Of a DNA stretch of 27,467 nt, positions 6,472 through 11,053 are shown piece by piece (positions within the stretch are counted from its first letter, which is position 1; every line of letters starts with the position of its first letter). Source of the stretch: Chloroflexota bacterium (GTDB lineage: Bacteria; Chloroflexota; Dehalococcoidia; UBA1151; TMED-70); assembly GCA_002719425.1 (NCBI GenBank), contig PBHA01000003.1, positions 26,343 to 53,809 of the forward strand, read 5' to 3'. The translations under genes were made by a program, and so were the position numbers. Under the pieces are notes generated by a model, which saw nothing but the letters and a program-made list of their open reading frames with translations, had not been told where the DNA came from and searched no databases.

Positions 6472-7326
6472 TTATTTTATTGCATCAATCGTGTAAACTT
6501 GCTCTCCTGCTGGAGTACTAACTGTTACTTCATCTCCCAATCTTCTACCAAGTATTGCTGCACCAACAGGTGATACACTGGAAATTTTACCAACTAAAGG
6601 ATTGGCTTCGTTTGCTTCTACCAATTGATATTCATGATTATTTTTGCTCTGGTGGTTAATTACACTAACTTTTGAACCGATAACAATTTGATCACCTTGT
6701 GAACTACTATCAATAATATTAGCCACTTTCAATATAGCTTCAATCTCATAAATTTTGGAATTTACCATTTCTATTTTTTCTCTTGCGGCATCTAAAGGAG
6801 CATTTTCTCTGATGTCACCATCTGCTGCTGCTTTTCTAACTTCTTCAGCTAATTTTGGCATCTCTGTTTTATAATCCTTTAATTGTTTTTTGTAATCCTT
6901 ATAACCTGCTTCTGTAAGATTTATTTCTTCACCTTTTGTAGCCTCAAGTTTTTTAGTGATTTTTCCTACGTTTGATTTTTTCATTCTCAAATGAGAAGCA
7001 AGATTCCCACTAGATAAATCATTGTTTTTTAGGAATGTGAGGAATTTTTTTAGGTATGCAACTTTTTGAGGAGCAGTGTCAGTACTTGTTCTTTTTGCAA
7101 ATTCGTCAGAATAAGCCCCAATTTCTGATGGAGTTATAGTAGTAATTTCCCTTTCAGGGCCTATCCATCTAACCATTCTTCCAATTTCTTGTTGAGCAAC
7201 ATTATTTAGTTTTCTTGGAGAGTTTTGAACATAATATTGGAAGGCTGCAGTTAAGTCTGTTAGTAATAGATGTTCTTCAATTGAATTTTCTTCAGAATTT
7301 TTAGTTTTAGTCAATTTAGCCCCCAC
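6472..7326 (-). CDS. greA: GreA transcript-cleavage factor with an extra N-terminal SAM-like domain
   Basis: A 284-residue protein. Residues about 134-284 are a complete GreA (usual length about 158): a coiled coil with the acidic tip GDIRENAPLDAA (170-181; Asp171 and Glu174 at the catalytic tip positions), then the FKBP-like C-terminal domain ending near VSPVGAAILGRRLGDEVTV. GreA reaches into the RNA polymerase channel and stimulates cleavage of backtracked RNA. The first about 130 residues are additional. Residues 20-100 resemble the SAM-like core-binding domain of tyrosine recombinases (a helical DNA-binding fold: LTDLTAAFQYYV, then ITTITPSEIGAY, then YLKKFLTFLK), but there is no recombinase catalytic domain. 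The start is GTG at 7324-7326, with AAGGA about 14 nt upstream, which is rather distant. It is the first gene of a pair with the FAD/Fe-S oxidoreductase. Confidence 0.92.
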   Translation of the reverse strand: MGAKLTKTKNSEENSIEEHLLLTDLTAAFQYYVQNSPRKLNNVAQQEIGRMVRWIGPEREITTITPSEIGAYSDEFAKRTSTDTAPQKVAYLKKFLTFLKNNDLSSGNLASHLRMKKSNVGKITKKLEATKGEEINLTEAGYKDYKKQLKDYKTEMPKLAEEVRKAAADGDIRENAPLDAAREKIEMVNSKIYEIEAILKVANIIDSSSQGDQIVIGSKVSVINHQSKNNHEYQLVEANEANPLVGKISSVSPVGAAILGRRLGDEVTVSTPAGEQVYTIDAIK

Positions 7327-7650: not shown

Positions 7651-7980
7651 TTGGAAATAAAAAATCTAAATAAAAAGTCAGAATTTTCTTACTTAAGAAG
7701 ATTCGGAATCAAAAATAAATTCAATTTTATAACTATCAGTACACTGCAGAACGAAAATAAAGATTTTAAGCTTGGATTTCAAATAAATACTAAAACAGGA
7801 AATGCAGTTTTTAGGAACAGAATTAGGCGGCAATTAAAACATATCTTTTATCAGATTTTCAAAAAATATGATAATGATCCTTCTAAATCAGGGTTATGGA
7901 TTTTAGTAAATGTAAATCCAAAAATTGAGAAGTTTGATTTCTCTGAGTATAAATCTTTTTTAGAAAAGATAGATTTATAG
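7651..7980 (+). CDS. rnpA: Ribonuclease P protein component
   Basis: A 109-residue basic protein that binds the RNase P RNA and helps it remove 5' leaders from pre-tRNA. The family signature is NAVFRNRIRRQLKHIF, matching the conserved RNR motif in VxRNxxKR. The N-terminal LRRFGIKNKF and the central LGFQINTKTGNAVFRN fit the rest of the fold. The start appears to be TTG at 7651, since no ATG or GTG precedes the conserved region in frame after the rpmH stop; ATT at 7648 is a less likely alternative. Position directly after rpmH supports the call. Sequence divergence is high outside the RNR motif, as usual for RnpA in AT-rich genomes. The stop shares one base with the GTG start of the next gene. 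Confidence 0.88.
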   Translation: MEIKNLNKKSEFSYLRRFGIKNKFNFITISTLQNENKDFKLGFQINTKTGNAVFRNRIRRQLKHIFYQIFKKYDNDPSKSGLWILVNVNPKIEKFDFSEYKSFLEKIDL

Positions 7981-9404
7981 TGAAAAAAATGAAAATTAGT
8001 TCGGCTAATGATTGGCTGAGTTATTCATTAGCTAACGTTTTAGATTTCTATAAAATGTGTATATCTCCATACATTAATAGTCAATGCTCTTATGTTGAAA
8101 CTTGTTCTACATACTCTAAAAGGAACATATTAGAAAGAGGAGTTATTTTTGGTTTATTTTTGACATTCATTAGATTGATTTCATGTACTTTCAACCCAAT
8201 AATTTATCAGTTTAAGAAAATTAAAAAAAATAAAATATTATTATTTACATTTCCTATGGTTTCTATTTTTTTTATTTCATGCATGAGTTTTTCATATGAG
8301 GGAGGTTGGTCCAATATTGTTTATTCTGAACCCGATGATTCTTACTTGGTAACTACAAATGAAGGTAAATTACATAAATTCAAGTTATTTGAGGGTGTCC
8401 CAGGAGTTGAATGGTCCTATCCCGAGGAAACAAAAAATACTTCTTATTCTGATCCTTTGATATTTGAAAACTCTGTTATAAGTTCAAATTTTAGCTGTCG
8501 AGGTAACTCATGTGAAGGTGAAATTTTTCAATTAGATTTACAAAGTGGTGATTTGCAATGGAAGATTAATACTACCACCAAAATCAGTTCTAAAATTGCT
8601 ATTAATGAAAATGTCCTTGCTTACGCTACCCTAAAAAAACAAACTGAAGTATCTAATAATAAAGAAGCAGAAATTCATTTTATTAAATTATCAGATAATA
8701 CTTATGAATTTTTAGGTAAGATAACTCTACAGGGAGAAATTTGGACAGGAGTATATTTATTTGATGAAAAGTTTGTAATTTCTACTTTAGATGGATGGAT
8801 ATATATTTTAGATGCTAACTTTGATTTATCAGAAGATATTTCTCTAGATTCTATAACCATAGATTCCAGAAAATTTCCATTTTCTATAAATTCACCAATT
8901 GCTTATTCGAATAACCGATTATTTTTCTCGGATGTTTCAGGAACATTTTATTCTGCTGATTCAAATAATTTAACTTCTAGTATTTCTAGCGATATTGGTA
9001 ATTGGATGGTTTCGTCTCCTATTTTTCAAGGATCTAAAATTTATGTTTTTACAGTGAATGGAGATTTCTTAGTTCTGGATTCACAAAATCTTAAATTATT
9101 GGAAAGTTTTTCTACTGAAAAAATTATAGTGGGGTCACCAACAATAGTTTCTTATGACAAAAATGATTATGTTCTAATTCCAACTGAAAAAAATGGAATT
9201 GAGGTTATGAGCAATAAAGAAGCTGACTTTGCTCAGAGTCAAGGAAGCTATGCAACTGATAATAAAAAAATCTATAGTTCTCCTTTTGTTAGAGATAATA
9301 ATTTATTAATTCATACTCAAGATGGGCAAGTCTTATTTTTTAGACTAAAATCAAGAGATTTGATTTATTGTCTAGATTTAAATGAAAGAAAGATTTGTGA
9401 TTGA
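7980..9404 (+). CDS. yidD: YidD membrane-insertion factor fused to an extracytoplasmic PQQ-like beta-propeller
   Basis: A single 474-residue frame. Residues about 15-75 match YidD, a small membrane-associated partner of YidC-dependent insertion: LDFYKMCISPYI, then a Cys motif QCSYVETCSTYS (family pattern CRFxPTCSxY), then ERGVIFGLFLTFIRLISC. YidD normally ends near here at 70-90 aa. Residues 85-100 are a hydrophobic segment ending FFISC (Cys101), like a lipoprotein signal but with Phe at -3, so either a lipid-modified Cys or a plain membrane anchor. Residues about 105-470 hold repeated propeller blades of the PQQ/BamB type (GKLHKFKL, GEIFQLDLQSGDLQW, GWIYILDA, GTFYSADS, GDFLVLDS, GQVLFFRL). 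Start: GTG at 7980 overlapping the rnpA stop, or ATG at 7989. The context between rnpA and yidC supports the YidD half. Whether it is one protein in vivo is open; see findings. Confidence 0.85.
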   Translation: MKKMKISSANDWLSYSLANVLDFYKMCISPYINSQCSYVETCSTYSKRNILERGVIFGLFLTFIRLISCTFNPIIYQFKKIKKNKILLFTFPMVSIFFISCMSFSYEGGWSNIVYSEPDDSYLVTTNEGKLHKFKLFEGVPGVEWSYPEETKNTSYSDPLIFENSVISSNFSCRGNSCEGEIFQLDLQSGDLQWKINTTTKISSKIAINENVLAYATLKKQTEVSNNKEAEIHFIKLSDNTYEFLGKITLQGEIWTGVYLFDEKFVISTLDGWIYILDANFDLSEDISLDSITIDSRKFPFSINSPIAYSNNRLFFSDVSGTFYSADSNNLTSSISSDIGNWMVSSPIFQGSKIYVFTVNGDFLVLDSQNLKLLESFSTEKIIVGSPTIVSYDKNDYVLIPTEKNGIEVMSNKEADFAQSQGSYATDNKKIYSSPFVRDNNLLIHTQDGQVLFFRLKSRDLIYCLDLNERKICD

Positions 9405-9414
9405 TTTATAAACA

Positions 9415-10362
9415 ATGAATATTTTTAGCCTTTTTTGGAACAACTTAATAATGAAACCTATGATAAATAGCTTGTCTATTTTGTATGATCTCTTGGGAGA
9501 TAATCTGGGTTTATCTATTATTTCATTCACTATAATTATCAGATTTATATTAATCCCTCTGACAATAAGACAGACCAAACAAATGAAGAGGATGCAAGAG
9601 ATACAGCCACAACTCCAAGCTATTCAAAATAAGTATAAAAATAAGACTGTGCAAAATAGACAAAAAATGCAACAAGAAACTATGGCTTTATACAGAGAAG
9701 CTGGGGTTAATCCCATAGGGTGTTTGGGTCCACTTATTATTCAAATGCCGATTTGGATAGGATTATATCGAGCAATTTTTAAGAGTGCTCCTTCTTCTCC
9801 AGAAGGTTATGTTGAACTTTCTAAGAATTTTTATTCATGGAATCAATCAATTGCCAAAGTTCCTTTCAACACAGAATTTCTAGGAATTGATCTAGTTGAT
9901 TTTGTTCAATATGCACCTTCACCATGGCAATTTGCCTTGCCAGTAATAGTAGGTCTTTCAATGTATATTCAACAAAAATTTACAATGTCACCAACTACTG
10001 ATCCTAGGCAGCAACAAACTCAACAAATGATGTTGTGGATGATGCCTATAATGTTTGGAGTATTTACATGGCAATTTCCTGCTGGATTAGCAGTTTATAT
10101 TCTTTTTTCAAATATTATTGGGATTTTTATTCAATATTATATTGGAGGTAAACAACCAATAATGCTATTTGGAAAATTGTATTTGGGAACAGATGAATCA
10201 AGAAAAAATTATCTAGATAAATTAGATGATCAAAGAAAAAGTAAAACAAGCAAAAATGAAGAGGAGGATACCGATGAATCCAAAAATATTCAAAGGGAGA
10301 ACAGTAGAAGAAGCAACAGAAGAAGCTCTAAAAACTCTAAACGAAGATCTAGAAAATCTTGA
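9415..10362 (+). CDS. yidC: Membrane protein insertase YidC/Oxa1
   Basis: A 315-residue insertase for integral membrane proteins, acting with or without Sec. The short form lacks the large periplasmic domain of proteobacterial YidC. It shows the Oxa1 core: a first hydrophobic helix with the groove arginine Arg43 (IIIRFILIPL), the cytoplasmic coiled-coil pair around QPQLQAIQNKYKN (about 55-95), the AGVNPIGCLGPLIIQMPIW motif, and later helices including LPVIVGLSMYIQQKF and MMLWMMPIMFGVFTWQFPAGLAVYI. After the last helix (about 240) comes a charged tail rich in Arg, Lys, Ser and Asn, which may contact ribosomes (a role known for basic YidC tails; here inference). The last 89 bp also encode the start of jag in another frame. 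The ATG at 9415 lies 10 bp after the YidD-fusion stop. Confidence 0.95.
   Translation: MNIFSLFWNNLIMKPMINSLSILYDLLGDNLGLSIISFTIIIRFILIPLTIRQTKQMKRMQEIQPQLQAIQNKYKNKTVQNRQKMQQETMALYREAGVNPIGCLGPLIIQMPIWIGLYRAIFKSAPSSPEGYVELSKNFYSWNQSIAKVPFNTEFLGIDLVDFVQYAPSPWQFALPVIVGLSMYIQQKFTMSPTTDPRQQQTQQMMLWMMPIMFGVFTWQFPAGLAVYILFSNIIGIFIQYYIGGKQPIMLFGKLYLGTDESRKNYLDKLDDQRKSKTSKNEEEDTDESKNIQRENSRRSNRRSSKNSKRRSRKS
10261..10267 (+). promoter_or_regulatory. Strong Shine-Dalgarno that sets the jag start inside yidC
   Basis: GAGGAGG at 10261-10267 lies 6 nt before ATG 10274. It is one of the best ribosome-binding sites in the window, where most genes have weak ones. It favours ATG 10274 over the in-frame ATG at 10226, and it sits within the yidC coding sequence. 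Confidence 0.8.
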
Positions 10363-11053
10363 AATAAAGATTATTGATACCGGTCGAAATGGTATATTAG
10401 GTTTAGGTGGACATCCAGCCGAAATTGAAGTTTATGTGTTAGGATCTTCAAACGTAAATGCGACTGAAAAACCTAAAACAAAACAGAAGAAAGTTAAGAA
10501 AGATACAAAACCCAAAAGATCAACTTCTTTGAAGAAGAAAAAAGAAGATTCTAAAGAAGATAAAAATGATATAAGTATTCCTACTGAGAAAGATTCTGAA
10601 ATAGAAGAAGTAGTAGGTAAAATACTTAATAATCTAATAAACTCTACAGGTTTAGATGCTGATGTTTATGTTAGAGATCAGATGGAGGAGGGTTCAATTG
10701 TTTTTGAACTTGAAGGACAAGATTCAGGATTATTAATTGGTAGAAGAGGAGAAACTCTTTCATCCTTGGAATATCTAGTAAGATTAATGGCTAGTAAGGC
10801 ATTAGATAAAAGAGCAAATATCATGATCGATGTAGAAGATTACAAACTTAGAAGAAAAGAGAAATTAGAGAATATAGCTAAAAAAACTGCTGAAAAAGTT
10901 TCTAAGACAGGGAAAAGAATTAGCCTAGAGCCAATGTCAGCAGCAGATAGAAGAATTGTTCATATGACTCTAGCGGAATCTAAAAATGTTAGCACTCAGA
11001 GTAGGGGTGAAGGTATGCATAGAAAGGTTGTAATAAATCCAGTTAGTGAGTAA
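10274..11053 (+). CDS. jag: RNA-binding protein Jag/KhpB (Jag-N, KH and R3H domains)
   Basis: A 259-residue cytoplasmic RNA-binding protein, known as Jag, EloR or KhpB and tied to cell elongation and sporulation control in Firmicutes. Residues about 5-55 are a Jag-N domain (FKGRTVEEATEEAL, then GRNGILGLGGHPAEIEV). A Lys-rich linker spans about 60-110. A KH domain has its GxxG loop in LIGRRGETLSSLEYL. The R3H domain carries ADRRIVHMTL near residue 230. The conserved Jag-N motif starts right after ATG 10274, which is preceded by a strong Shine-Dalgarno. The longer start at 10226 would add 16 non-conserved residues. It follows yidC as in many Gram-positive-type genomes. It overlaps yidC by 89 bp and the next gene by one base (TAATG). 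Confidence 0.94.
   Translation: MNPKIFKGRTVEEATEEALKTLNEDLENLEIKIIDTGRNGILGLGGHPAEIEVYVLGSSNVNATEKPKTKQKKVKKDTKPKRSTSLKKKKEDSKEDKNDISIPTEKDSEIEEVVGKILNNLINSTGLDADVYVRDQMEEGSIVFELEGQDSGLLIGRRGETLSSLEYLVRLMASKALDKRANIMIDVEDYKLRRKEKLENIAKKTAEKVSKTGKRISLEPMSAADRRIVHMTLAESKNVSTQSRGEGMHRKVVINPVSE

Follow-up and report, generated by a model that had tools for sequence, protein, structure and literature searches.

An in-frame YidD-propeller gene beside yidC in a Chloroflexota clade, with a predicted lipoprotein signal peptide at the junction

In the window (the whole stretch of 27,467 nucleotides analysed here), a single gene between rnpA and yidC joins YidD to a BamB-like propeller, and the hydrophobic segment at the junction is, judged by its sequence features, a lipoprotein signal peptide placed behind YidD. 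We think it probable that the gene yields a single precursor with YidD inside, which LspA would cut to leave a membrane-anchored YidD and a lipid-anchored propeller. The features of the locus are:

7651..7980, + strand: rnpA (RNase P protein), whose TAG stop shares one base with the GTG that starts the fused gene
7980..9404, + strand: the yidD-propeller lipoprotein fusion, 474 codons beginning with GTG; an ATG at 7989 is another possible start
7980..8201, + strand: YidD domain, residues 1-74; Pfam match over residues 18-70, profile positions 5-57 of 67
8202..8234, + strand: basic linker, residues 75-85 (IYQFKKIKKNK), which would be the n-region of the signal peptide
8223..8230, + strand: A8 tract near the junction
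8235..8279, + strand: hydrophobic helix, residues 86-100, the putative h-region of the signal peptide; a low-confidence helix in the model
8271..8282, + strand: lipobox F98-I99-S100-C101, with a predicted LspA cut before C101 and predicted lipidation on C101
8280..9401, + strand: BamB-like propeller, residues 101-474, with probably eight blades, judging from the closest solved folds
9415..10362, + strand: yidC, 315 aa; PF02096 over residues 32-243

The frame is unbroken from its GTG start and sits between rnpA and yidC, in agreement with the original prediction, and the reading of its product as YidD followed by a propeller is borne out by a PF01809 match above the cut-off (44.6 bits against 27) and by a model of the C-terminal half as a propeller. 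Comparison with homologues had been proposed as a check on whether the two domains belong to one open frame. We searched 5.8 billion proteins and obtained 19 matches, 15 of which have both domains in one frame (43-100% identity among the two-domain matches, which include the partial protein P0014); because both domains recur together in this way, the in-frame join of YidD and propeller is not a matter of chance. At the protein level, the remaining four matches are P0004, which begins inside YidD, P0005 and P0013, which begin at a Met after the lipobox Cys, and P0019, which begins later. A search of 100 relatives of genome G001, itself reached via locus L001, gave a match in 89, and one open frame runs across both domains in seven of the eight best-scoring genomes (G002-G008). 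The eighth, G001 (L001, Chloroflexi isolate EAC10, an N-rich MAG), has a one-base break at the junction, its two frames lying at L001:8001-8321 and 8305-9423. Rather than all carrying two separate genes, an outcome that the original prediction had allowed for, the close relatives are fused and two genes are found in more distant ones. Labels on the records name a Chloroflexota YidD protein (P0014), a Chloroflexi MAG (L001) and a Dehalococcoidia bacterium (P0020). The fused clade consists of AT-rich Chloroflexota, and we take it to be marine SAR202. This YidD-propeller fusion was not found among the papers listed by a literature search that screened titles and abstract openings.

The A8 tract at 8223-8230, which the original prediction had singled out as a place where a sequencing frameshift might hide, is indeed present. 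A slip there during sequencing or assembly could mask a normal stop and so create the fusion as an artefact, an explanation favoured by the tract itself, by the frame break near the junction of the MAG G001 and by the fact that P0005 and P0013 begin just past the lipobox Cys. However, the nine fused loci differ in their longest run of A around the junction, which measures 8 in the window, 7 in L007, L009 and L010, 6 in L005 and only 3-5 in L002, L004, L006 and L008, so that five of the nine have just 3-6 A at this place. The frame is open through the junction in L004, L006 and L008, as it is in L005, L007, L009 and L010, and because the loci with short A runs (L004, L006, L008) keep the frame, homopolymer error is not the cause. 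Furthermore, the two-domain matches come from several sources, and the break in L001 comes down to a difference of one base in an N-rich assembly; over the 40 codons upstream of the Cys, its downstream frame (as L002) contains no ATG, GTG or TTG. The artefact explanation is already contradicted by these observations, and we find it hardly credible. Given the L001 break and the starts of P0005 and P0013 just after the lipobox Cys, broken copies may exist in nature. Slippage of transcripts on the A run, which would release free YidD, was set aside in view of the same run lengths; it is possible where the run is long.

The relatives in which the two genes are separate suggest how the fusion arose. 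We took the best matches of the G001-relatives search as a set of 29 loci from 29 genomes (L004-L032), 7 fused and 22 unfused. Every one of the 29 has the propeller after yidD, and in 28 of them the gene that follows is yidC (L013 stops at the contig edge). Every unfused locus (22 of 22) has at least one stop between yidD and the propeller match and a lipobox-type Cys in the propeller frame, the latter found by script in 20 and by reading the translations in L028 and L031. Junction codons were read in eight of the 22. In some unfused loci the two genes are very close: in L011 and L031 the TAA of yidD is followed directly by an ATG in the same phase, L015 shows an ATGA overlap of the two genes, and L017 and L022 have a single base between TAA and GTG. 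On a YidC tree of 39 rows, 38 of them different (L031 and L046 are one genome, and L039 is labelled unfused), the nine fused rows are split off together from the others by a branch supported at 100/100, and likewise in all 200 bootstrap trees; because they form this one group, a single origin of the fusion would suffice for the clade. The fused gene would have arisen through loss of the yidD stop and of the start of an older downstream propeller lipoprotein gene.

We also looked for YidD joined to other sequences. In a class-wide survey, YidD was found in 359 of 393 genomes, and the two longest frames among the matches listed were read. The long YidD frame of G143 (L040) was rejected as a fusion, since it reads through from upstream and the propeller lies in a different frame. 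One Dehalococcoidia genome (G427) does contain a second join, distinct from the first: at L039:762-2150, a complete YidD is followed in frame by a propeller lipoprotein. Among the best 120 of the 728 matches to its protein, only the L039 protein itself has a YidD domain, and because of this and of the GTG codons in its linker, the L039 join appears to be a case apart, limited to a single species. A search for YidD within long proteins of other kinds gave 2 matches among 326 candidates, the L039 protein and P0140; P0140 was rejected as a YidD-propeller case, its upstream part not resembling a propeller.

An exact parS site (TGTTTCACGTGAAACA, which we take to be the parS consensus) lies at or just past the yidD end in L039 (position 1015) and in L041 (positions 1205 and 1405); in the window there is none within 3 mismatches. 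Within the first 110 residues of the best 50 matches listed for the L039 protein (P0020-P0069), the peptide FHVK, often as MFHVKH, occurs in 34 and VSRET in 3 more, both being peptides that a parS site can encode. From this pattern, a chromosome-partition site seems to be built into the lipoprotein N-terminus. A literature search for parS in coding sequence with FHVKH gave none with FHVKH among the matches listed.

The YidD half of the fused protein is diverged. TIGR00278 is matched only narrowly (41.1 bits, cut-off 40), and in the window, as in 8 of 8 fused-clade genomes, the YidD profile match stops at position 57 of 67, leaving the last ten positions, the C-terminal GGYDPV tail, unmatched, so that the window does not hold a complete YidD profile. 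In the unfused genomes searched alongside, the match reaches position 67 in four of four. YidD scores are 45-56 bits in seven fused genomes, 30 in the N-rich G001 and 77-82 in the four unfused genomes. To judge by these profile matches, loss of the YidD tail accompanied the fusion. The fused copy is the sole YidD match in each of the 8 fused-clade genomes. No solved YidD is among the structure matches listed, and the YidD part of the model is of low confidence. The role that we would give this half, aid to membrane protein insertion by Sec/YidC, is assigned from its family and position. YidD is entered in the table of a review as a putative membrane protein insertion efficiency factor, with citations of in vitro transport and cross-linking work (PMC8082313).

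The C-terminal part scores below the cut-offs of both PF13570 (71.1 bits, cut-off 133) and PF13360 (22.3 bits, cut-off 27.6), and its predicted structure is a propeller closest to eight-bladed ones. The Foldseek match of rank 1 is 2yh3 (TM-score 0.68 by target, E 9.6e-15); equally good alignments are obtained with other structures, designed eight-bladed propellers among them, and the fold match thus does not single out BamB. Against TIGR03300, the BamB equivalog, the window scores 35.2 bits, short of the cut-off of 285.2.

The core of the window's yidC product starts at residue 32, leaving little room for a large external domain before it. The frames of yidC (9415-10362) and jag (10226-11053, + strand) overlap, as they do in L001, and the likely jag start near 10274, placed by eye, still overlaps the yidC end by about 90 bases. 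Elsewhere in the window, at 6472-7326 on the minus strand, the N-terminal domain of GreA is preceded by about 135 residues with a weak match to an integrase SAM-like domain (E 0.0026, under the cut-off).

The hydrophobic, signal-like segment that had been placed at residues 85-101 is there, with Met93 as its only ATG, as originally noted; the predicted helix spans residues 86-100, and at its end is a lipobox whose Cys is residue 101 (codon 8280-8282), a feature absent from the original prediction. The window has the anatomy of a bacterial lipoprotein at this point, with a basic n-region, a hydrophobic stretch and a lipobox Cys. Of the 20 rows of alignment A1, 17 have letters at the lipobox, and in each of these the Cys at +1 is preceded by Ser at -1, while the hydrophobic positions are variable. 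Position -3 is Phe in 16 and Cys in one, the motif being mostly FISC or FVSC, and the stretch before the hydrophobic segment is mostly rich in Lys/Arg. When a PROSITE-style lipobox pattern was applied to the nine fused loci, seven passed, the window included, and L009 and L010 failed through a Cys at -3. Lgt and LspA are each encoded in 8 of 8 fused-clade genomes, relatives of the window.

Estimates of dN/dS (NG86) for seven pairs of fused loci are rough, since several dS values exceed 1 and the linker has 23-25 codons per pair. YidD has ratios of 0.15-0.52, the propeller 0.07-0.39 and the linker plus signal 0.43-1.78 (one pair undefined), and in the L005/L008 pair the linker ratio (0.43) is near that of the propeller (0.35). 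Taken at this resolution, YidD and propeller both appear to have been kept as proteins by purifying selection, and the linker appears mostly to drift as signal peptides do, with the exception of Ser-Cys.

The main rival to a processed precursor is that the segment stays in the membrane as a signal anchor, so that YidD (inside) and the propeller (outside) would form one single-pass protein at YidC. The single frame fits such a protein, as does the helix at 86-100, predicted with low confidence. However, a plain anchor needs neither Ser100 nor Cys101, and the Ser-Cys pair is invariant while the rest of the segment varies (the Cys might be retained for another reason); the unfused relatives, moreover, encode a separate lipoprotein. 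Because the segment would be a signal peptide inherited from that separate lipoprotein gene, which still follows yidD in 22 of 29 loci, cleavage by LspA is the likelier fate, and we consider a permanent tether unlikely. Of the new insertase-tethered propeller that was originally proposed, the genuine, conserved single frame at the insertase locus stands, and the lasting attachment to YidD is weakened.

Two proteins could also be made if translation of the propeller still began on its own inside the frame that it shares with YidD, at a weak or non-standard codon. The window offers ATT at 8220 as an example, from which a textbook signal peptide would result. We scanned the 40 codons before the Cys in the nine fused loci. 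In-frame candidates are present in the linkers of L005 and L006 (ATG at -27), L008 (TTG at -32) and L009 (TTG at -16, directly before the hydrophobic stretch), and GTG codons are present in the linker of L039, the relative with a join of its own, all of which would suit internal initiation. These candidates lie at differing places, however, and no canonical linker start is shared across the nine fused loci: in the window and L004, every ATG or TTG falls either in YidD or in the hydrophobic stretch itself, L007 lacks any candidate across the 40 codons, L002 is out of phase in the scanned region, and L010 has no visible start but contains N bases, the codon matching the TTG of L009 being unreadable. 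The counterpart of ATT 8220 in L004 is TTA, and no SD-like motif precedes the candidates, save one before the ATG within YidD of L004; yidC in the window, read by eye, likewise has no clear SD. We regard a separate start as quite improbable for the propeller of the fused gene, and internal initiation may operate in some lineages.

Under the processed-precursor reading, which we prefer, the fused gene would be translated as one polypeptide, a step with support from sequence, and the retained lipoprotein signal peptide would direct its insertion such that YidD stays inside and the propeller is placed outside. Cys101 would be lipidated by Lgt, after which LspA would cut before it. The products would correspond to the two ancestral parts, namely a YidD anchored in the membrane at its C-terminal end by the used signal peptide and, next to YidC, a propeller anchored by its lipid. 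Counting against this reading are the Phe or Cys at lipobox position -3, the pattern failures of L009 and L010, the diverged YidD half, the linker ATG or TTG codons in four loci (L005, L006, L008 and L009) and the rough linker ratios. A literature search for internal lipoprotein signals gave no paper evidently on point among the matches listed.

As to what the propeller would do, its likeliest task, by analogy with BamB as a scaffold at the BAM complex, would be to dock or hold external domains as they emerge from Sec/YidC. We put forward tentatively, as possible rather than probable, the wider view that Chloroflexota YidC, having no large external domain, works with a lipid-anchored propeller as an outside folding or docking subunit and with YidD inside, and that one clade makes both as an LspA-processed precursor; that the propeller supplies an outside function to YidC is a proposal. 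If it is true, then the precursor would fix the ratio and place of propeller and YidD, and a lipoprotein signal peptide would become the membrane anchor of YidD. When neighbouring genes become fused, this is evidence that their products cooperate. The present fusion ties YidD, whose role is poorly defined, to an external BamB-like lipoprotein encoded after yidD in 29 of 29 loci, and suggests an unrecognised outside subunit of the Chloroflexota insertase. The fused gene is also a natural test of whether LspA can process a lipoprotein signal that lies inside a protein, with about 85 residues ahead of it; two membrane proteins would then be obtained from one frame by an unusual route.

Compared with known systems, the YidD half resembles the YidD family (PF01809, TIGR00278) in its rnpA-yidC position, its above-cut-off profile score and, by eye, three Cys common to unfused relatives, but differs in lacking the GGYDPV tail and in being followed in frame by a signal peptide and a propeller. 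The propeller half shares with BamB and PQQ-like propellers its fold (2yh3 being the top Foldseek match), a lipoprotein signal and a membrane-protein assembly setting; it differs from BamB in scoring far under the equivalog cut-off (35.2 against 285.2 bits) and in being encoded with yidC. To our knowledge, the phylum Chloroflexota is usually regarded as having no BAM-type outer membrane. The separate propeller lipoprotein encoded after yidD in Chloroflexota/Dehalococcoidia is alike in position and related in sequence, and the fused half is the same protein, except that the separate form has its own frame, at least one stop away from yidD in 22 of 22 loci. For the precursor as a whole, a parallel is provided by the cytochrome b-c1 polyprotein (FbcH) of Bradyrhizobium, in which two subunits of a membrane complex are made as one precursor and split at an internal signal peptide by signal peptidase I; a literature search on this precedent gave no paper evidently about it among the matches listed. 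Both would be two-subunit precursors separated at an internal signal peptide, although the proteins are unrelated and the signal predicted here is of the lipoprotein type, to be cut by LspA.
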